64,000 nt of DNA from NCBI RefSeq assembly GCF_015277775.1, contig NZ_CP063849.1, forward strand, positions 3,410,001-3,474,000. Direction: 5' to 3'. Source of the stretch: Paludibaculum fermentans (lineage in GTDB: Bacteria; Acidobacteriota; Terriglobia; Bryobacterales; Bryobacteraceae). Shown piece after piece: positions 26,861-45,731 of the stretch; position 1 is the first letter of the stretch, and the number at the start of each line of letters is the position of its first letter. The position numbers and the translations under genes are program-made. Under the pieces are notes generated by a model, which had not been told where the DNA came from, searched no databases, and was given only the letters and a program-made list of their open reading frames with translations.

Positions 26861-26997
26861 GACTCCCTGACGGTCGTGGTTCGTCGCGGCTTCGGTTGAT
26901 TTCGCGGCCAGGTGGGCCATGGGGGACTCCCTGGATGACTCTTTGACGATGCATCCCGTTGTTGAGTTGGTTGGAGCCTTTCGGTGGCTATCCGCTC
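26861..26997 (+). repeat. 137-bp direct repeat, copy 1
   Basis: Runs from GACTCCCTGACGGTCGTGG through TTCGCGGCCAGGTGGGCCAT and GACGATGCATCCCGTTGTTG into the family-1 core. The equivalent segment at 27328-27464 has the same length and only a few differences. Confidence 0.8.
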
Positions 26998-27014
26998 ATT
27001 TACATTCGCGGCTC
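26973..27014 (+). repeat. Dispersed repeat family 1, copy C
   Basis: GGAGCCTTTCGGTGGCTATC ... CGCGGCTC; the last base of the 3' arm is changed (GGCTCA rather than GGCTCC). Confidence 0.75.
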
Positions 27015-27327
27015 AATTTGAGGCGTCCGCTTTGGTGGTGCGGGGGACGGGTGGGGGCTCGGACGAGGTTCGGATGGATGTGGTGCCTCTTTTGCTGGTG
27101 GGTTGGGGCTTGGCGTTGCTCCCCCGCTCCTTGCAGTCGCGGCTCGGTTTGCGGGTTTGTGCGGGGCGGCGGCGGTGTTTGGGCCTTGGGGTCGCCGGGC
27201 TCGTTGTGGTTTTCGGCGCGGCGGGGACCACTCCATTGAAGGCGCCCGCGTAGCCCGTCGCTGCGCTCCGGGACTGGGGATGTTGGGGCGGCTTCCTCCG
27301 ATTTGGCGGCCCGCAGGGCCATACTGA

Positions 27328-27464
27328 GACTCCCTGACGGTCGTGGTTCGTTGCGGCTTCGGTCGATTTCGCGGCCAGGTGGGCCATCGGGGACTCCCTG
27401 GATGACTCTTTGACGATGCATCCCGTTGTTGAGTTGGTTGGAGCCTTTCGGTGGCTATCCGCTC
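27328..27464 (+). repeat. 137-bp direct repeat, copy 2
   Basis: Same text as 26861-26997 with scattered changes; it ends in the family-1 core just before the inverted transporter fragment. A third copy, lacking the first ~44 bases and carrying a 6-base insertion, begins at 28221. Confidence 0.8.
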
Positions 27465-27484
27465 TAATCGACATTCGCTGCTCC
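27440..27484 (+). repeat. Dispersed repeat family 1, copy D
   Basis: GGAGCC at 27440; the 3' arm is degenerate (GCTGCTCC). It forms the left border of the inverted transporter fragment. Confidence 0.75.
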
Positions 27485-27527
27485 GTTTGCGGCTTCCTTC
27501 GTTTGCGGCTGCCTTCGCTTTGGCAGG

Positions 27528-28222
27528 GCATCGAAGACCACGGTGGAGCCCAGCGACTCAATCAACTCAGTAGGCTGGCCTGTCCTCTCGTGGATGCGGC
27601 CCGACATGATTCGCGAAAGGATGTACTGCTCGGTGAAATTCTTGGCTCCGATCCGTACCGGCCGCGCTCCCCGCCTGCGAACGCGCCAGCCAGTCGTGCG
27701 AGCGCCACGCCGCCAGCGCCGCGAATACACACAACGCGCCGATCCAGAGTGCCCGGCGGCGCAGCCTCAACCCCAATTCGACCACGCGAATCAGTCCGTC
27801 CAGCGCCAGCGCCAGCAGCGCCGCCGCCACACAGCCCACCAGCACCGCCGCATAATTGCGCGTTTGCAGGCCGCTGAAGATGTAGTTCCCCAGGCTCGGC
27901 GCGCCCACCGCGTAGAGAGCGTGGCCGTGCCCACAGTCCACACCGTCGCCGTTCGGATCCCCGCAATGATCATCGGCAGGGCCAGGGCAGTTCCACGCGG
28001 AAAAGCTGTTCCCCGGAGTCATGCCAACGCTCTGTGCTGCCTCGAGAAGCGCCGGTTCGATACTGGCCAGGCCCACCAGCGTATTGCGCAGGATGGGCAG
28101 CACACTATAGAGACACAGCCCGATGAGCGCCGGCAGATAGCCGATGCTCTGCATGCCCAATGCCGCCAGCGCCGGCACCATGAAGGCCAGCAGCGCCAGG
28201 CTCGGTACCGTCTGGATCACGC
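27528..28222 (-). pseudogene. Inverted partial duplicate of the EgtU-like transporter gene
   Basis: This 695-bp minus-strand segment matches 39669-40368 (700 bp, + strand) base for base except for five missing single bases, each in a run of two to five identical bases: the runs at 39877-39881 (G5), 39905-39908 (C4), 39983-39984, 40190-40191 and 40223-40227 (G5). I found no substitution. It covers the transmembrane permease from about residue 52 and the first ~40 residues of the binding domain. It has no start or stop region of its own and is flanked on both sides by copies of the local direct repeat, so it cannot be functional. Confidence 0.92.
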
Positions 28223-28295
28223 GGCCAGGTGGGCCATCGCCGTCGGGGACTCCCTGGATGACTCTTTGACGATGCATCCCGTTGTTGAGTTGGTT

Positions 28296-28338
28296 GGAGC
28301 CTTTCGGTCGCTATCCGCTCATTCACATTCGCGGCTCC
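28296..28338 (+). repeat. Dispersed repeat family 1, copy E
   Basis: GGAGCC ... GGCTCC spanning exactly 43 bases. It is followed by the second module of the family, GGCGGCCCGCAGGGCCATGA, which can fold as GGCCC-GCA-GGGCC. Confidence 0.8.
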
Positions 28339-28429
28339 GTTTGCGGCTTCCTTCGATTTGGCGGCCCGCAGGGCCATGATGGGACTCCTTTGAAGGCGCG
28401 CTGGCGAAGGGTCGTGAGACTGCCGGTGT

Positions 28430-37682: not shown

Positions 37683-38618
37683 GTGAATCGAAGAGTTTTT
37701 GCCGGCGTGGTGTTTGCGGGTCTGGCAGCGCCGAGAGCGGCGCGGGCGAAAGCGGGCGATATCCCCATGCGCACGCTGGGGCGGACGGGGGAGAAGATCA
37801 CCATCATCGGCCAGGGCGGCGCGCGCTTCGGCCTGATTCCGCTGGATGAAGGAAAGGCCGTGGTACGGCGCGCCTATGAACTCGGGATCAACTATTTCGA
37901 CATGGCTCGCGCGTACACCAAGGGCTATGGCGAAGAGGTCTACGGGGCTGTGATTCCGGAGTTCCGGAAGGAGATTTTCCTCACCACCAAATCGCTGCAA
38001 AGGACAAGGCAGGGGGCGGAGGCGGACCTGGAAACCTCGCTGCGGACGATGAAGACCGATCACGTGGATCTGTGGCAGCTACACATGGTCTCGACGATGC
38101 GGGAGGTGGAGCAGATCTTCGCTCCGGGCGGCGCGATCGAGGCATTCGAGGCGGCAAAGAAGGCCGGCAAGTGCCGCTACATCGGATATACGAATTGCCG
38201 CGATCCCCAGGTGCATGTGGAGATGCTGAAGCACGCCGAGCGGTTCGACACCTGCCTGATGCCGCTGCATGTGGCGGACACCTGCTTTTCCGAGTCCCCG
38301 AAGATGAGCTTCGAGCAGACGGCCCTGCCGGCAGCGGTGGAGCGAGGGGTGGGCATTTTCGCCATCAAGGTGTTTGGCAATGCCTTCCTGCTGCGCACAT
38401 TCAGCGCGGGGGATTGCCTGCGGTACACGCTGAGCCTGCCCATCACAGCAACGCCGCTGGGCGCGTGCACGCTGGGGCAGATCGAGGATGATGTGCGCAT
38501 CGCACAGAAGTTCAAGCCGCTCACCGCGGAGGAGAAGCAGGCCCTGGTGGCGCGGGCAGCGAGCGGGAAGTTCGATGCGATTCGGGGTCCGGCGCTGGAG
38601 TACTGGAAGACGCGCTGA
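37683..38618 (+). CDS. Aldo/keto reductase with export signal
   Basis: A 311-residue protein starting at GTG. MNRRVFAGVVFAGLAAPRAA is a short signal with an RRxF pair, suggesting Tat export of a folded, cofactor-loaded enzyme. The reductase core shows the catalytic tetrad: Asp and Tyr in NYFDMARAYT, Lys in LTTKS and His in LWQLHMV, on a TIM barrel. The cofactor is normally NADPH. It precedes the transporter ATPase by 120 bases on the same strand; whether it belongs to the ergothioneine locus is uncertain because that gap may hold a promoter. Confidence 0.88.
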   Translation: MNRRVFAGVVFAGLAAPRAARAKAGDIPMRTLGRTGEKITIIGQGGARFGLIPLDEGKAVVRRAYELGINYFDMARAYTKGYGEEVYGAVIPEFRKEIFLTTKSLQRTRQGAEADLETSLRTMKTDHVDLWQLHMVSTMREVEQIFAPGGAIEAFEAAKKAGKCRYIGYTNCRDPQVHVEMLKHAERFDTCLMPLHVADTCFSESPKMSFEQTALPAAVERGVGIFAIKVFGNAFLLRTFSAGDCLRYTLSLPITATPLGACTLGQIEDDVRIAQKFKPLTAEEKQALVARAASGKFDAIRGPALEYWKTR

Positions 38619-38738
38619 GAGGCTGGACTGGGCCGATTGGCGGCCTCACCCAGCGGGCTGTGATGGTGAGATACAGAGGCCAGGAGTCGACACACCCAGT
38701 CGACTTTCCGTTGCTCTGAATGCTAGACTTTGGCGATC

Positions 38739-39518
38739 ATGATCCAGCTGGAGGCGCTCACCCGGCGCTTCGACGGGCAACGGGCGGTGGATTCGGTTTC
38801 ACTGGAGGTGGCCGAGGGCGAGCTGCTGGTGCTGCTCGGCGGGTCGGGCTCCGGCAAAACCACGACGCTCAAGATGATCAACCGGCTCATCGAGCCGACC
38901 AGCGGCAGGGTGCTGCTATCCGGTGAGAACGTAGCGGGGATGAAGCCGTACGAGCTGCGGCGGCGCATCGGGTATGTCTTCCAGCGGATCGGGCTGTTTC
39001 CCCACATGACGGTGGCCGAGAATATTGCGATTACTCCGGTGCTTCTGGGATGGGATCGGGACCGGATCCGCTCGCGCGTGGATGAGCTGCTGGAACTGGT
39101 CGAACTGGGTCCTGCCATGTATCGAGATCGCCGGCCGGAGGCGCTCTCGGGCGGCCAGGCGCAGCGGGTGGCCGTGGCCCGGGCGCTGGCGGCGGAGCCT
39201 CGGGTCATGCTACTGGATGAACCCTTCGGCGCGTTGGACCCGCTGACGCGGGGCAGGCTGCAGCAATCGTTCCTGCGGATCAGGCAGACGCTTGGGCTCA
39301 CGGCTATCTTTGTCACGCACGACGTGATGGAGGCGATCCTGCTGGGTGATCGTATCGCAGTCATGGATTCAGGGCGGGTCAAGCAGGTGGGCACGGCGCG
39401 GGAGCTACTGGACTCACCCGTGGACGAGTCCATTCGCGCATTGATCAATGCGCCCTGGAGCCAGGCCGAGATTGCATCGGACCGCGTGGGCCGCGGTCAC
39501 GGGACCACGCCAGCTTGA
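38739..39518 (+). CDS. Quaternary-amine-type ABC ATPase (OpuCA/EgtV-like)
   Basis: A 259-residue ATPase, ATG at 38739. Walker A LGGSGSGKTTTLK, Q-loop VFQRIGLFPHMTV, signature LSGGQAQRVAVARAL, Walker B VMLLDEPFGALDP and switch IFVTHD are all intact. It has no C-terminal CBS pair, unlike osmosensing OpuA-type ATPases. Its stop overlaps the TTG start of the permease/binding-protein gene (TTGA). Because the following genes include egtB and egtD, an ergothioneine importer (EgtUV-type) is more likely than an osmoprotectant importer; this is inference from architecture and context. Confidence 0.88.
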   Translation: MIQLEALTRRFDGQRAVDSVSLEVAEGELLVLLGGSGSGKTTTLKMINRLIEPTSGRVLLSGENVAGMKPYELRRRIGYVFQRIGLFPHMTVAENIAITPVLLGWDRDRIRSRVDELLELVELGPAMYRDRRPEALSGGQAQRVAVARALAAEPRVMLLDEPFGALDPLTRGRLQQSFLRIRQTLGLTAIFVTHDVMEAILLGDRIAVMDSGRVKQVGTARELLDSPVDESIRALINAPWSQAEIASDRVGRGHGTTPA

Positions 39519-41038
39519 ACGAGCAACTCCAACTCCTGCCGGGGTACCTCTCGGCGCACCTGGGCCTGACGCTGGCGGCGATCCTGGTGGGTGTGCTGGT
39601 GAGTGTCCCGCTGGGTGTGCTGGTGGCGGGGTCGAAGCGGCTGGAGCCGTTTGTCCTGGGGACGGCGAGCGTGATCCAGACGGTACCGAGCCTGGCGCTG
39701 CTGGCCTTCATGGTGCCGGCGCTGGCGGCATTGGGCATGCAGAGCATCGGCTATCTGCCGGCGCTCATCGGGCTGTGTCTCTATAGTGTGCTGCCCATCC
39801 TGCGCAATACGCTGGTGGGCCTGGCCAGTATCGAACCGGCGCTTCTCGAGGCAGCACAGAGCGTTGGCATGACTCCGGGGGAACAGCTTTTCCGCGTGGA
39901 ACTGCCCCTGGCCCTGCCGATGATCATTGCGGGGATCCGAACGGCGACGGTGTGGACTGTGGGCACGGCCACGCTCTCTACGCCGGTGGGCGCGCCGAGC
40001 CTGGGGAACTACATCTTCAGCGGCCTGCAAACGCGCAATTATGCGGCGGTGCTGGTGGGCTGTGTGGCGGCGGCGCTGCTGGCGCTGGCGCTGGACGGAC
40101 TGATTCGCGTGGTCGAATTGGGGTTGAGGCTGCGCCGCCGGGCACTCTGGATCGGCGCGTTGTGTGTATTCGCGGCGCTGGCGGCGTGGCCGCTCGCACG
40201 ACTGGCTGGCGCGTTCGCAGGCGGGGGAGCGCGGCCGGTACGGATCGGAGCCAAGAATTTCACCGAGCAGTACATCCTTTCGCGAATCATGTCGGGCCGC
40301 ATCCACGAGAGGACAGGCCAGCCTACTGAGTTGATTGAGTCGCTGGGCTCCACCGTGGTCTTCGATGCGCTGCGAAACGGGCAGATCGATGTTTATGTCG
40401 ATTACACGGGGACGTTGTGGGCGAACATCCTGGAGCGCAAGGACCGGCCTCCGAACCGGGCGGAAGTGCTGGAGGGCACGCGGAGCGGCTTGCGCGAGCG
40501 ATTCGGCGTGGAACTGCTGGCGGCGCTCGGCTTTGAGAATGCGTATGCGCTAGCGATGAACGGGCAGCAAGCCGAGGAGCTGAACGTCAGAAAGATCAGC
40601 GACCTGATCCCGTATGCGCCGAAGCTGCGATTGGGCAGCGACTACGAGTTCCTTTCGCGGCCGGAATGGAAGGCGCTGGAGGCGCGGTACGGACTCAGGT
40701 TTCAGGAGCAGAGGTCGATGGATCCGGCGCTGATGTACCAGGCGTTACGGAGCGGCGGGGTCGACCTGATCAGCGCGTTTTCCACGGATGGGCGGATCGT
40801 GCCATATCATCTTCGTGTGCTGGAAGACGATCGCGGAGCCATTCCGCCGTACGATGCGGTGATCCTGGTGAATGCCGTGTTTGCCCGCGAGCAACCCGCG
40901 GTGCTCGACGCTTTGCGTTCCCTGGCACAGAGCATTGATGGCGAGCGGATGAGAGCGTTGAATGCCGAGGTCGACCAGAGCCGGCACTCGCCCGCAGAAG
41001 CGGCCGCGGGGTTCCTCAAAGGCGCGGGCCACCGTTAA
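39515..41038 (+). CDS. Permease/substrate-binding fusion, EgtU/OpuC-like
   Basis: A 507-residue protein starting at TTG in a TTGA overlap with the ATPase gene. Residues ~1-220 are the six-helix permease with the EAA-type loop (LLEAAQSVGMTPGEQLFRVELP). After a linker helix, residues ~240-505 are a periplasmic type-II binding domain (RIGAKNFTEQYILSRIM, VDYTGTLWANIL, SDYEFLSRPEWKALE, DLISAFSTDGRIVPYHL). This fused layout is shared by OpuC-like betaine importers and by EgtU, the ergothioneine importer reported from Streptococcus pneumoniae and Helicobacter pylori. The adjacency to egtB and egtD argues for ergothioneine; the ligand pocket could not be checked. A partial inverted copy lies at 27528-28222. 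Confidence 0.85.
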   Translation: MNEQLQLLPGYLSAHLGLTLAAILVGVLVSVPLGVLVAGSKRLEPFVLGTASVIQTVPSLALLAFMVPALAALGMQSIGYLPALIGLCLYSVLPILRNTLVGLASIEPALLEAAQSVGMTPGEQLFRVELPLALPMIIAGIRTATVWTVGTATLSTPVGAPSLGNYIFSGLQTRNYAAVLVGCVAAALLALALDGLIRVVELGLRLRRRALWIGALCVFAALAAWPLARLAGAFAGGGARPVRIGAKNFTEQYILSRIMSGRIHERTGQPTELIESLGSTVVFDALRNGQIDVYVDYTGTLWANILERKDRPPNRAEVLEGTRSGLRERFGVELLAALGFENAYALAMNGQQAEELNVRKISDLIPYAPKLRLGSDYEFLSRPEWKALEARYGLRFQEQRSMDPALMYQALRSGGVDLISAFSTDGRIVPYHLRVLEDDRGAIPPYDAVILVNAVFAREQPAVLDALRSLAQSIDGERMRALNAEVDQSRHSPAEAAAGFLKGAGHR

Positions 41039-41101
41039 GCAGCTCAGTGCGAAATTGCAGCGGTTGTGCGGGAAGGTCCCAAATCGCGTTATCATCGGCG
41101 C

Positions 41102-42502
41102 ATGGACCGGGCTGTTACGGGGCAGTACAGCGCGATCGTGATCGGAACTGGGCAGGCGGGACCGTCTCTCGCCGCGAAGTTAGCGGGCGCGGGACAGAAG
41201 GTCGCCATCATCGAGCGTGCCAAGTTCGGAGGCACGTGTGTCAACACAGGGTGCATTCCCACCAAAACCCTCGTCGCCAGCGCACGGGCTGCCTACATTG
41301 CGCGCCGTGCGGCCGACTTCGGGGTGATGATCGACGGCTCAATCAGCGTCGATATGAAGCGCGTGAAAGCGCGCAAGGACCAGGTCTCCGGGGCGTCACG
41401 AACAGGCCTCGAACACAGGCTCAAAAATACGCCCAACTGCACGGTATACGAAGGACATGCGCGATTCCTGTCCGACCGTGAAGTACAGGTGGGCGACGCT
41501 GTCCTGACCGCTGAGCGGATCTACATCAATACCGGAGGACGGGCCACGGTGCCGGCCATTTCCGGCCTGGACCAGGTGCCGTATCTCACCAACTCGTCGA
41601 TGATGGACGTCGACTTCCTGCCGCCGCATCTCGTCATTATCGGGGGCAGTTACATCGGCCTCGAGTTCGCGCAGATGTACCGGCGGTTTGGCAGCAAGGT
41701 GACGATTGTGGAGCGTGGCGCGCGGCTGATCGCCCGGGAAGATCCGGCGGTTTGCGATGCGATCCGGACGATCCTGGAAAACGAACAGATCGAGGTCCGC
41801 CTGAACGCGGATTGCATCGCGGTGGCGAAGACGGCCGAGGGCGTGGAAGTCCGGGTGAACTGCGGCTCCGGCGACAACACGGTGCACGGATCCCACCTGC
41901 TGCTGGCGGTGGGACGGCAGCCCAATACGGACGACCTGGGCCTGGAGAATACGGGCATCCGGCGCAACCGGCGAGGCTACATCGAAGTCGACGACCAACT
42001 GCAAACCAGCGTACCCGGCGTATGGGCGATGGGCGATTGCAATGGACGAGGCGCGTTTACGCATACGTCCTACAACGACTTTGAGATCGTGGCGGCGAAC
42101 CTGCTGGACCACGATCCGCGGCGTGTATCAGACCGCATTACGGCTTACGCACTCTACATTGATCCGCCACTGGGGCGTGCCGGAATGACTGAGTCAGAGA
42201 TCCTGAGCTCAGGACGCCCTGCCCTGGTTGGAGCGCGCCCGATGACACGGGTTGGGCGGGCCAATGAGAAGGGTGAAACACAGGGCTTCATGCGGGTCAC
42301 GGTCGACGCCGAAACGAAGATGATTCTCGGCGCGGCTATTCTCGGCGTCGAAGGCGACGAAGCAATCCACTGCATTCTGGATGTGATGTACGCGAAGGCC
42401 CCGTATACGGTGCTGCAGCGGGCGATGCACATTCATCCCACCGTCTCCGAACTCATCCCAACAGTGTTGGGCGAACTGAAACCACTCGAGAAAACCACCT
42501 AA
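41102..42502 (+). CDS. Class I flavoprotein disulfide reductase
   Basis: A 466-residue FAD/NAD(P)H enzyme. The ATG at 41102 begins the FAD-binding strand (YSAIVIGTGQAGPSLAAKLAG). The redox disulfide is C46-C51 in GGTCVNTGCIPTK, the NAD(P) fold is GGSYIGLEFAQMYRRFG, the second FAD motif is GVWAMGDCNG, and the C-terminal HPTVSE contributes the catalytic His-Glu pair to the partner subunit. It lacks the N-terminal heavy-metal domain and the C-terminal vicinal cysteines of mercuric reductase, so a low-molecular-weight disulfide substrate is likely. Lying 2 bases before egtB, it may reduce oxidised ergothioneine or a mixed disulfide (inference). Confidence 0.9.
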   Translation: MDRAVTGQYSAIVIGTGQAGPSLAAKLAGAGQKVAIIERAKFGGTCVNTGCIPTKTLVASARAAYIARRAADFGVMIDGSISVDMKRVKARKDQVSGASRTGLEHRLKNTPNCTVYEGHARFLSDREVQVGDAVLTAERIYINTGGRATVPAISGLDQVPYLTNSSMMDVDFLPPHLVIIGGSYIGLEFAQMYRRFGSKVTIVERGARLIAREDPAVCDAIRTILENEQIEVRLNADCIAVAKTAEGVEVRVNCGSGDNTVHGSHLLLAVGRQPNTDDLGLENTGIRRNRRGYIEVDDQLQTSVPGVWAMGDCNGRGAFTHTSYNDFEIVAANLLDHDPRRVSDRITAYALYIDPPLGRAGMTESEILSSGRPALVGARPMTRVGRANEKGETQGFMRVTVDAETKMILGAAILGVEGDEAIHCILDVMYAKAPYTVLQRAMHIHPTVSELIPTVLGELKPLEKTT

Positions 42503-42504
42503 CC

Positions 42505-43758
42505 ATGGCAACCCAGGAAGCTGTTGCCCATGACCGCACGACACTAATTGGCCGGCTGCACGAGGCGAGAGAGGAGACGGATGCGCTCCTTGACATCGTG
42601 CTGCCCGAGGCGCTGTATGACCGGCCCATTCCCGAGCGCCACCGGATTGTTTTCTACCACGGCCACCTCGAGGCGTTCGACTGGAACCTGCTGAGCGGGC
42701 CGTGCGGCCTAGCCAGCAGCGAACCGGAACTGGATCGCCTTTTCGCCTTCGGCATCGATCCAATTGACGGCAGGCTGCCTTCGGATGCGCCGGGCGATTG
42801 GCCGCGACCGGAGCAGGTGGCCGGATACAGAAACCGGGCCAGACGGGCGCTCAATGAAGCCATCCACCGCGTACCGAATCCGGAACTGCTGCTGAATGTC
42901 GCCATCGAGCACCGGCTGATGCACGCCGAGACGCTGGCCTACATGTTCCACCAGATGCCCTTCGAAAAGAAGGCGCGCCGGGCCGTGCGCCGCGTGCTGA
43001 ACGGCGGTGAGTGGACACCGGCATCGGTGGAGATTCCCGAGGGCCAGGCCGTGTTGGGGCTGCGCAGGGAATCCGGTGTTTTCGGCTGGTGCAACGAGTT
43101 TGAGGAATGCCGCGCGCCAGTGCCCGCGTTCCGTGTCGACAAGTACAAAGTGAGCAATGGACAGTTCCTGCGGTTTCTGACAGAGGGCGGATATGACGAC
43201 CGCGGGCTCTGGCCGGATGCGGATTGGGCCTGGAAGTCGGAGCACGGCATCAAGCATCCCGCATTCTGGTTGAATCGCGGCGGCCGGTGGGTTTACCGGT
43301 CGATGTTCGATGAGTTGCCGCTGCCGCTGGACTGGCCCGTCTATGTCAGCCACGCCGAGGCGAGCGCCTACGCCCGGTGGGCAGGCAAGCGATTGCCGAC
43401 AGAAGCGGAATGGCATCGCGCCGCTGAAGGTCCGGCCCAGCAGCATGCGGATCCGCAGCGCGACATCTGGGATCCTTCACCGGTGCAGGTCTGTGGATCC
43501 AGCGAATTCGGAGTCGAAGGCCTTTTCGCCAACGGGTGGGAGTGGACGTCCACATCGTTTGCGCCATTGCCCGGATTTCGGGCATTTCCGTTCTATCCGG
43601 GGTACTCGTCGGATTTCTTCGACGGCCAGCACTTTGTGTTGAAGGGCGGCAGCGAAAGAACGGCCGCCTGCATGCTGCGCGGAAGTTTCCGCAACTGGTT
43701 CCAACCGCATTATCAATACGTCTACGCGGGTTTCCGCTGCGTGAGAGTGGAGGACTGA
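42505..43758 (+). CDS. egtB: Ergothioneine sulfoxide synthase EgtB
   Basis: A 417-residue two-domain enzyme. The N-terminal DinB-like bundle carries the iron ligands: His52/His54 in FYHGHLEAF and His136/His140 in IEHRLMHAE (the HxxxHxE motif). The C-terminal formylglycine-enzyme-like domain has FRVDKYKVSNGQFLRF, KRLPTEAEWHRAA, GNGWEWTS-like NGWEWTSTSF and a final GGSERTAAC...NWFQPHYQYVYAGFRC block. EgtB joins hercynine with a thiol donor using O2 and Fe(II). No egtA, egtC or egtE is in the window; the acidobacterial enzyme from Chloracidobacterium thermophilum uses cysteine directly, which would dispense with EgtA and EgtC. It ends 6 bases before egtD. Confidence 0.92.
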   Translation: MATQEAVAHDRTTLIGRLHEAREETDALLDIVLPEALYDRPIPERHRIVFYHGHLEAFDWNLLSGPCGLASSEPELDRLFAFGIDPIDGRLPSDAPGDWPRPEQVAGYRNRARRALNEAIHRVPNPELLLNVAIEHRLMHAETLAYMFHQMPFEKKARRAVRRVLNGGEWTPASVEIPEGQAVLGLRRESGVFGWCNEFEECRAPVPAFRVDKYKVSNGQFLRFLTEGGYDDRGLWPDADWAWKSEHGIKHPAFWLNRGGRWVYRSMFDELPLPLDWPVYVSHAEASAYARWAGKRLPTEAEWHRAAEGPAQQHADPQRDIWDPSPVQVCGSSEFGVEGLFANGWEWTSTSFAPLPGFRAFPFYPGYSSDFFDGQHFVLKGGSERTAACMLRGSFRNWFQPHYQYVYAGFRCVRVED

Positions 43759-43764
43759 TTCGCC

Positions 43765-44730
43765 ATGGCAGCCACAGCGACCGCCGTTGCCCCGCTGGAG
43801 CAGTTTGCTACCGACGTCCGGAGCGGACTCGCCAAGCCGCGGAAGGAGCTGCCGTCGAAGTACTTCTACGACGCGTTAGGTTCCGCGCTGTTTGAGGCGA
43901 TCTGCCTGCTGCCGGAGTATGGCCTGACGCGCGCGGATGAGCGAGTTCTCTCCCGGCATACCCAGGAGATTGTGAGCCGCATTCCGCATCCGGTGCTGGT
44001 CTCCGAGCTCGGCAGCGGCAGCGGACGGAAGACGCGCCAGATTCTGGGCGCCTTGTGCAAGCGTGGGCCGGTTTCGTACTACCCGATTGAGATCTCACCT
44101 AAGGCACTTGCCTCTTGTGCAGCGGAGCTGGATGACATCGACTGCCTGAGCATCGTGGGCATCGAACGGGAGTACCTGGACGGCCTGAGGTCCGTGGCCG
44201 CGGCGCGGCCCGCGGGCGCGCACATGCTGGTTCTATTCCTCGGCAGCACGATTGGCAATTTCGATACAGGCGCCGATGCAAGGTTTCTGCGGGAGGTTCG
44301 AGGTACTCTGCGACCCGGTGATTCGCTGCTGCTCGGAACGGACCTGGTCAAACGAGCCGACCTGATGCTGGACGCGTACAACGACTCACTTGGGGTCACG
44401 GCAGCCTTCAATCTCAACCTGCTCTCGCGCATTAATCGCGAGCTGGAGGGAAACTTCGAGCTGCGCCAGTTCGAGCATCTGGCGCGATTCAACGAAGCAA
44501 CGTCGAGCATCGAGATGCACATCGTGTCCAAGCAGCGGCAACTGGTCAGTGTGCGGCACAGCGGGATTGCGACCACATTTGAGGAGGGCGAGACCATCTG
44601 GACGGAGACGTGCCACAAGTACACTCGTCCCGAGATTGCGCGTCTCGCGGCTGCTTCCGGATTCCGCGTCGAGGCCCAGTGGGTGGATGAAGCGTGGCCC
44701 TTCGCCGAGAGCCTGTTTTTGGCCGAATGA
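43765..44730 (+). CDS. egtD: L-histidine N-alpha-methyltransferase EgtD
   Basis: A 321-residue SAM-dependent enzyme that trimethylates histidine to hercynine, the substrate of EgtB. Family features are LPSKYFYDALGSALFEAICLLPEYGLTRAD at the N-terminus, the SAM loop SELGSGSGRKT, the histidine-binding LFLGSTIGNFD (Asn) and ITxxY-like DAYNDSLGVTAAFNLNLL, and the C-terminal RHSGIATTFEEGETIWTE with the conserved glutamate. Length is typical. It is the last gene of the locus, 6 bases after egtB and followed by a hairpin. Confidence 0.95.
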   Translation: MAATATAVAPLEQFATDVRSGLAKPRKELPSKYFYDALGSALFEAICLLPEYGLTRADERVLSRHTQEIVSRIPHPVLVSELGSGSGRKTRQILGALCKRGPVSYYPIEISPKALASCAAELDDIDCLSIVGIEREYLDGLRSVAAARPAGAHMLVLFLGSTIGNFDTGADARFLREVRGTLRPGDSLLLGTDLVKRADLMLDAYNDSLGVTAAFNLNLLSRINRELEGNFELRQFEHLARFNEATSSIEMHIVSKQRQLVSVRHSGIATTFEEGETIWTETCHKYTRPEIARLAAASGFRVEAQWVDEAWPFAESLFLAE

Positions 44731-44767
44731 ACAGCAGGAAACAGAGCGAATTGGATCGAGGGTGAGG

Positions 44768-44789
44768 CTGGCGGCGATTCGCCCGCCAG
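44768..44789. terminator. Hairpin between convergent genes
   Basis: CTGGCGG-CGATTCGC-CCGCCAG: a 7-bp GC stem with an 8-base loop lying between the ends of egtD and the SMP-30-like gene. There is no T-run on either side, so it is at best a weak or factor-assisted terminator. Confidence 0.45.
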
Positions 44790-44798
44790 GGTCGAAAG

Positions 44799-45731
44799 CT
44801 AACGTCCAGGGGGCTGGCCGCCTGGGGCAGTTGGTAACGGGACGCCTCGGCGCCTGGCCGGGCGCCGGTAGATTCTGTCCACTTCGGTTACGTAGAGCCA
44901 CTGAAATCCGGTGCCTCCAAAGAAGACATTGGTGAGGCCGCCGGTACCCGGAGGCCGAAGGATTGCGCTGACCCGGCCTTGTGGATCGCATACCTGCACA
45001 CCCTGCTGTGTCGCGACGTACAAATAGCCTTGCGAGTCAAATGTCATGCCGCCGGAATCGATCCCGGAGGTTGCGTCTCCGGCCTCCAGGCCGCAGAACT
45101 GTTTCGGGTTGAGCAGGGAGCCATCGCCGCCTATCTGAAAGAGCCAGACCCAGGGGGTGCGCGAATCCGCAATTGCGAGAAGCGGCTGGGTATTGGAAGC
45201 ACGCACTCCGCGCGGCCACTCCATGCCTTCGTGAACAACACGCTTACGCCCATCCGGCTTTACCAACCACACCATGTGGGCGGGAGGCTGGCTGAGGTAG
45301 ATGTCATTCCGAGCGGTGACCGTGAGGTGGTGCGACTGGACCCCTTCCGCAAGCACCGACTCCTCGCCGCCGGGCGAGAAGGCCACGACTCTTTTGCGAT
45401 CGTGCTGGCCGGCGTAGAGGCGGCCGTCCGGGCCAAAGGCAATGCCATGCGCGCCGTTGCTGTTCTCCTTCCAGGTGGTGATCCTGCCGGCGGGATCGAC
45501 CTTCATGATCCGATTGCGGTAGGAGTCGGTGAAGTAGACATTGCCGCTGTTGTCCACGGCGGAATCCGCGGTGAGCTGATAGCCCTGGCCTAGCAGCACC
45601 CACTGCTCGCCGGGTGTGAGGATCGCGCCGGCACCGCGGCCATCAATGGGAGTTGTGGACCGGGTGTCCTGCGGGTACACACGCGCAATCGAGACGAGAG
45701 CCAGGAGTGCGAGCGGGACGGTGCGAAGCAT
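44799..45731 (-). CDS. Secreted SMP-30/gluconolactonase-like propeller
   Basis: A 310-residue protein. The start is placed at the ATG before the signal peptide (MLRTVPLALLALVSIARVYPQ); one in-frame ATG eight codons upstream is an alternative. The six-bladed propeller shows the SMP-30/Gluconolactonase motifs STADSAVDNSGNVYFTDSYRNRIMKV, NGAHGIAFGPDGRLY, SHHLTVTARNDIYLS and SGIDSGGMTFDSQGYLYV. Family members hydrolyse sugar lactones or other esters using a bound Ca2+/Zn2+; secreted forms are common in Acidobacteria. It is convergent with egtD and has no operon partner. Confidence 0.85.
   Translation of the reverse strand: MLRTVPLALLALVSIARVYPQDTRSTTPIDGRGAGAILTPGEQWVLLGQGYQLTADSAVDNSGNVYFTDSYRNRIMKVDPAGRITTWKENSNGAHGIAFGPDGRLYAGQHDRKRVVAFSPGGEESVLAEGVQSHHLTVTARNDIYLSQPPAHMVWLVKPDGRKRVVHEGMEWPRGVRASNTQPLLAIADSRTPWVWLFQIGGDGSLLNPKQFCGLEAGDATSGIDSGGMTFDSQGYLYVATQQGVQVCDPQGRVSAILRPPGTGGLTNVFFGGTGFQWLYVTEVDRIYRRPARRRGVPLPTAPGGQPPGR

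Follow-up and report, generated by a model that had tools for sequence, protein, structure and literature searches.

A putative ergothioneine operon of Paludibaculum fermentans that joins synthesis genes with a ProX-type importer and a class I disulfide reductase

Gene content of the locus

We analysed a stretch of 64,000 nt from Paludibaculum fermentans, a soil-type bacterium (Acidobacteriota; RefSeq assembly GCF_015277775.1, contig NZ_CP063849.1, positions 3,410,001 to 3,474,000 of the forward strand), hereafter the window; the genome, G000 in our set, comprises 9.53 Mb in two contigs. Five co-directional genes at window positions 38739-44730 (+) encode, in this order, an ABC ATPase, a permease/binding-protein fusion, a class I disulfide reductase, an EgtB-like sulfoxide synthase and EgtD, whose predicted functions may together cover synthesis, uptake and recycling of the antioxidant ergothioneine. 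The genes are as follows.

38739-39518 (+), ABC ATPase of 259 aa, ProV/OpuCA-like and without CBS domains; Walker A GGSGSGKTT and LSGGQ motifs; Pfam ABC_tran
39515-41038 (+), permease/solute-binding-protein fusion with a ProX-type binding domain (residues ~240-505); 507 aa; TTG start
41102-42502 (+), class I FAD disulfide reductase of the PRK06370/NF004992 type; CVNTGC redox Cys pair; C-terminal HPTVSE
42505-43758 (+), EgtB-IV/OvoA-like iron sulfoxide synthase of 417 aa without a methyltransferase domain; contains GHLEAF and IEHRLMH motifs
43765-44730 (+), EgtD, histidine N-alpha-trimethyltransferase; NCBIfam cut-off passed

The spacing between successive genes is -4, 63, 2 and 6 nt: the start of the fusion gene overlaps the ATPase gene by 4 nt, and the gaps follow between the fusion and reductase genes, the reductase gene and egtB, and egtB and egtD. 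The only signal in a consensus scan of 38450-45050, weak evidence as such scans are, was a terminator-like site within egtB; promoter-like sites were not found. The same five-gene order is present in two congeneric genomes (G002 and G006), and the block is apparently one operon. The initial annotation had described five closely spaced genes on one strand for an ATPase without CBS domains, a permease/binding-protein fusion, a class I disulfide reductase, EgtB and EgtD. This description was borne out except for the name EgtB, which holds in part: the protein is a sulfoxide synthase nearest to EgtB-IV, but it passes no curated cut-off for EgtB, OvoA or SenA. The strong tie of the reductase to EgtD and the presence in the genome of a further egtB-egtD pair, of the canonical type II, both described below, go beyond that annotation.

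No C-terminal CBS domains were found in the ATPase by Pfam, and its score against the NCBIfam model TIGR01186 for the OpuC/ProV osmoprotectant ATPase (282.3 bits) was below the cut-off of 326.6. The fusion protein contains the Pfam domains BPD_transp_1 (residues 31-204) and OpuAC (residues 241-502).

The window EgtD scored 311.6 bits against the NCBIfam equivalog model (cut-off 290.9). It retains the equivalents of Y39, N166, Y206 and E282, which, together with S284, we take to be substrate residues in the numbering that we assume for EgtD. The usual Ser at position 284 is replaced by Cys (window residue 283, encoded at 44611-44613). This variant was found in 6/25 EgtD proteins encoded beside EgtB-IV/OvoA-like genes (three of the six being the triple of the window genus), in 0/22 beside type II EgtB and in 1/31 without EgtB nearby.

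The EgtB-like protein scored 233 bits against EgtB (TIGR03440, cut-off 360), 241 against OvoA (cut-off 400) and 223 against SenA (cut-off 420). Its nearest solved structures are EgtB-IV (8vih, 230 bits) and then OvoA (8khq, 189 bits), from both of which it differs in lacking a C-terminal methyltransferase domain, and it is ~47-58% identical to a group adjoining egtD in other Acidobacteriota. The motifs GHLEAF and IEHRLMH presumably hold iron-binding His residues. By best similarity and these conserved His motifs, the protein is a predicted sulfoxide synthase of the EgtB-IV/OvoA type, and its product is likewise a prediction. A selenoneine or ovothiol reading of the gene was rejected as first choice, given the scores below the SenA and OvoA cut-offs and the presence of EgtD; SenB was not searched for.

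The second egtB-egtD pair of the genome lies at G000:C1:5652381-5654726 (locus L083, 5381-7726). Its EgtB scored 541.7 bits (cut-off 360) and matched the solved “EgtB (Cabther)” group with 434 bits. Since this pair is of the canonical type II, the genome has in the window pair a further route, of the EgtB-IV/OvoA type. For several relatives, the counterpart of the window egtD was the sole egtD detected at E 1e-20.

Association of the disulfide reductase with EgtD

The reductase scored 791.8 bits against NF004992 (cut-off 629), a family that NCBIfam names “FAD-containing oxidoreductase” without a specific function. The CxxxxC redox pair (GGTCVNTGC at 43) and the His-Glu motif (HPTVSE at 445) place it among class I disulfide reductases, as in PRK06370/RclA-like enzymes. 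Scores were below the NCBIfam cut-offs for RclA (366/740 bits), hypothiocyanous acid reductase (328/650) and mercuric reductase (324/454). The nearest solved structure was 6kgy, which we take to be RclA, and other class I reductases were also close.

The occurrence of the reductase was compared with that of EgtD in 297 Acidobacteriota genomes (thresholds: EgtD, E 1e-40; reductase, E 1e-120; importer, E 1e-60), 114 of which have EgtD. The reductase subfamily was found in 37 genomes, 36 of them with EgtD, versus 78 of the 260 others (Fisher p 5e-16); at genus level the figures were 25/26 and 49/141. When labels were shuffled within families, 28.8 joint occurrences were expected against the 36 observed, a number that 0 of 20000 permutations reached. 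Mercuric reductase, a relative, showed no association (15 genomes, six with EgtD), and lipoamide dehydrogenase was uninformative as a control, being near universal (285/297). The reductase gene also lies near egtD in three further Acidobacteriota genera (L248, L263 and L264; 46-64% identity), and a GN15 locus with importer, egtB and egtD (L119) carries a 112-residue reductase fragment at the contig end. The tie to EgtD is strongest for the reductase.

The alternative is that the enzyme serves another oxidant or a metal, as RclA-like, hypothiocyanite or copper-type reductases do, and that the link to ergothioneine reflects a general oxidative-stress response. Its nearest structures, 6kgy and other class I reductases, and its partial scores to RclA and hypothiocyanous acid reductase are in keeping with such a role, which we regard as a real possibility, short of an even chance. 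It sits poorly with the near-exclusive occurrence with EgtD, also within families, and with the physical linkage, neither of which was seen for mercuric reductase.

Binding pocket, phylogeny and genomic context of the importer

Among structures in the Protein Data Bank, the binding domain matched Archaeoglobus fulgidus ProX, a binding protein for glycine betaine and proline betaine, with 200 bits and 40-41% identity, and Streptococcus pneumoniae EgtUC with ~124 bits; identity to EgtU was 30%, with the same fold. The AlphaFold model (mean pLDDT 95.8) had ProX as its best structural match (TM 0.93) and Helicobacter pylori EgtU as the third in the list. EgtU, the characterised bacterial importer of ergothioneine, was described in bacteria unable to make this thiol (PMC9732360).

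The pocket was mapped onto that published for S. pneumoniae EgtU (PMC9732360). The window fusion keeps K247, T300, R382, E378, N342, Y344 and Y446, and differs by F249 for G244, Y297 for F293, F340 for Y337 and F422 for Y419. Its aromatic cage consists of Y297, Y344, Y446 and F422, plus N342, with one cage Tyr replaced by Phe, and the carboxylate site (K247, T300 and R382) is intact. Across 86 rows of the fused clade, G244 and F293 occur in none and Y337 in two; position 419 holds F in 62 rows and Y in the other 24.

A tree of 49 sequences, comprising 23 of the 86 clade rows together with three EgtU references and one ProX reference among others, placed the fused clade in one group (support 97/94) that is sister to ProX (support 99/97). 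The tree joining the fused clade to EgtU was rejected (p-AU 0.0324). Fusions of permease and binding protein occur in several clades, some in reversed domain order. With ProX the window importer shares the cage and the Lys/Thr/Arg site typical of cluster F-III and the equivalents of F15, Y63 and F107. ProX was deposited as a stand-alone binding protein, whereas the window protein is a fusion; in the window clade, furthermore, D109 is replaced by N, the position corresponding to EgtU T274 (G in ProX) is S, position 338 carries E or Q and position 419 F or Y.

An alignment of five fused proteins served as the query pattern against 84,980 species genomes, and we considered the best 80 loci among the matches listed, some of which run off contig ends. 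These loci belong to Acidobacteriota, Myxococcota, Planctomycetota, Zixibacteria, GN15 and Proteobacteria. Thirteen of them, from several phyla, have egtB and/or egtD within 8 kb, beside either type of EgtB. The transporter's own genes aside, EgtD (12 loci) and EgtB (9) are the most widespread neighbour families outside Caulobacterales; a short-chain-dehydrogenase-like family was present in six loci and others in four. Several neighbour families are confined, or nearly so, to Caulobacterales, where many of the importer loci adjoin genes that we take, by eye, to be flagellar. EgtD was present in 44 of 50 searched genomes with the fused clade (40 over the cut-off), a set hand-picked from the best 80 loci and including all 13 egt-linked ones, and in 31/37 once those 13 were set aside.

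In the 297 Acidobacteriota genomes, 48 had importer matches; 38 of these were full-length, and ten binding-domain-only matches were excluded. EgtD was found in 30/38 genomes with a full-length fused importer and in 84/259 without. Ten of the 38 importers exceed 600 bits and are nearest to the window (7/10 of these genomes with EgtD, p 0.041), whereas 28 lie at 335-409 bits and include fusions of the F341/N419 group (G119, G185, G306 and G368). The 30/38 therefore covers other fusions besides the window clade and should not be read as applying to the latter alone.

A survey of egtD neighbourhoods in Acidobacteriota took one per genus, 73 in total, several of them truncated at contig ends. An OpuC-type importer was present in 11; ~0.5 would be expected on the simple assumption of one or two copies per genome of average size. 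The 11 importers fall into three binding-domain groups. The first is of the window type (L250 and L257). The second has Phe or a similar residue at 341 and Asn at 419; it is fused in L217, L237, L254, L261 and L269 and split in Bryobacteraceae-like relatives and L209. The third is a distinct, egt-linked clade with the binding domain before the permease (L220, 9013-11076; L256, 3-2423; L265, 4261-5754). In the family and order of the window genome, a split ATPase, permease and binding protein stand beside egtD in seven genomes, six of which also have egtB; the seventh is cut by a contig end. Importers of this kind are statistically tied to egtB/egtD across phyla, and their repeated recruitment beside egtD is the strongest argument for a ligand from the ergothioneine pathway.

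Window 27509-28222 (-) contains a ~700-nt duplicate of an internal part of the fusion gene, from 39669 to about 40375. Substitutions are confined to its end, and five deletions of one base each, all in short runs of G or C, break the frame. On both sides it is bordered by an intergenic repeat that is dispersed in the genome and has a core of ~52 nt (window 26925-28346 and elsewhere), for which a 99-nt probe gave 48 matches in the genome; the three full-length matches are all in the window around the gene fragment. G002 and G006 each gave one match to the fusion protein, so no second copy was seen there. The fragment is either a duplication of very recent date or an artefact of the assembly.

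A possible module for synthesis, uptake and recycling

We consider it somewhat probable that the block is an ergothioneine operon combining synthesis, uptake and recycling, in which the importer would be an independently recruited ProX-type carrier and the reductase a candidate ergothioneine-disulfide reductase. As follows from their families, EgtD would convert histidine to hercynine, and the EgtB-IV/OvoA-like synthase would add sulfur from a cysteine donor, forming the C-S bond. Judging from its context, the importer, recruited independently of Firmicute EgtU, would import ergothioneine or its betaine precursor hercynine, or recapture them after leakage. The Tyr/Phe cage would take the trimethylammonium group of the ligand, and Lys247, Thr300 and Arg382 would bind its carboxylate. 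The reductase, again by context, would use a nicotinamide nucleotide to return the oxidised disulfide to ergothioneine.

A wider version of this proposal is put forward more tentatively: producers in several phyla may own a second, independently evolved ProX-type importer for ergothioneine or histidine betaines, the PRK06370-type reductase may be a dedicated ergothioneine-disulfide reductase, and synthesis, uptake and redox recycling may form one genetic module. A producer-associated importer clade, if real, would explain how producers retain or recapture ergothioneine and would correct osmoprotectant-transporter annotations. A dedicated reductase would settle the question of enzymatic recycling of oxidised ergothioneine in cells; glutathione and mycothiol each have their own reductase. 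In the literature searched, to which the H. pylori paper did not belong, we came across no description of an ergothioneine operon that includes a ProX-type importer of its own and none of a bacterial ergothioneine-disulfide reductase, and we make no claim of their absence from print.

A number of observations weigh against the proposed operon function. One family (f8) contributes 16 of the 36 genomes with both reductase and EgtD, and the reductase gene is close to egtD in only 4/36. No EgtE C-S lyase over the cut-off was found in the window genome (12 matches, best 69 bits versus 400). Among the best 80 importer loci, those of Caulobacterales showed no egt linkage. In Acidobacteriota, the within-family excess of importer-EgtD co-occurrence is modest (30 observed versus 26.4 expected by permutation, p 0.015), and no EgtD was detected in 8/38 genomes with a fused importer, nor in 3/10 of those nearest to the window. 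Neither a BCCT carrier nor another OpuC-type binding protein with an intact cage was found in the window genome. The window residues F, Y and F are ProX-like at the positions where S. pneumoniae EgtU uses G244, F293 and Y337 for ergothioneine, and the EgtU mutant G244F has ~100-fold weaker affinity for it (PMC9732360). The missing EgtU hallmarks alone nevertheless leave room for ergothioneine as the ligand, because Zhang and colleagues remark that cluster members that lack G244 and the Y-to-F switch may differ or be relaxed in specificity and, citing work on H. pylori, that some such members aid ergothioneine uptake at much lower affinity (PMC9732360).

The strongest counter-reading is that the importer is an ordinary ProX-type carrier of osmoprotectants (glycine betaine, proline betaine or choline) that merely shares the ergothioneine operon, because its pocket is ProX-like and the genome lacks both a BCCT carrier and a further intact-cage binding protein. 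The best sequence and structure match to A. fulgidus ProX and the supported sister position agree with it. We judge it rather unlikely all the same, given the recurrent linkage to egtB/egtD in several phyla and three importer groups and the presence of EgtD in 44/50 genomes. Moreover, no betaine-metabolism family was recognised among neighbours recurring in at least four of the best 80 loci, where representatives were read by eye without a library scan.

Within the proposed operon function, the substrate of the importer could be, instead of ergothioneine itself, a histidine betaine such as hercynine that serves EgtB as precursor. The conserved cage, carboxylate site and E378 (EgtU E375) would suit such a ligand, the differences from EgtU lying close to the thione and the associated water molecules (I243, G244 and T274), and the adjacent EgtB would use hercynine. 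EgtD of the same operon, however, already produces hercynine, and we hold this variant to be improbable.

The initial annotation had taken the importer for an EgtUV relative mistaken for OpuC, with the fused layout as its sign. The layout, an ATPase with a fused permease and type F-III binding domain, is indeed shared with EgtU of S. pneumoniae type (the EgtU/EgtUV systems being those of S. pneumoniae, Listeria monocytogenes, there BilEB, and H. pylori), as are the cage, the Lys/Thr/Arg site and the equivalents of Glu375 and Asn339; such fusions, however, are found in several clades. The same annotation had named placement in a betaine- or choline-binding clade with a conserved aromatic box as evidence against its reading, and this is largely what was found. 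The window clade, moreover, is carried mostly by EgtD-containing genomes instead of by non-producers, and the window importer stands in an operon with egtB-egtD. Orthology to EgtU was rejected as highly improbable, despite the common layout, fold and 30% identity, on the supported tree separation (with three EgtU references) and the absence of G244 and F293 from 86/86 rows and of Y337 from 84/86. What remains of the earlier idea of scavenging and synthesis in one operon is that the block joins synthesis genes with a fused importer of a kind tied to egtB/egtD across phyla, although that importer is not EgtU.

A Firmicute EgtU-like importer was also observed on a Leuconostoc carnosum plasmid typed as mobilizable (locus L095, 2947-6854), where its gene is followed by those of an ATPase and a glutathione-reductase-like flavoprotein, with a manganese catalase gene nearby.

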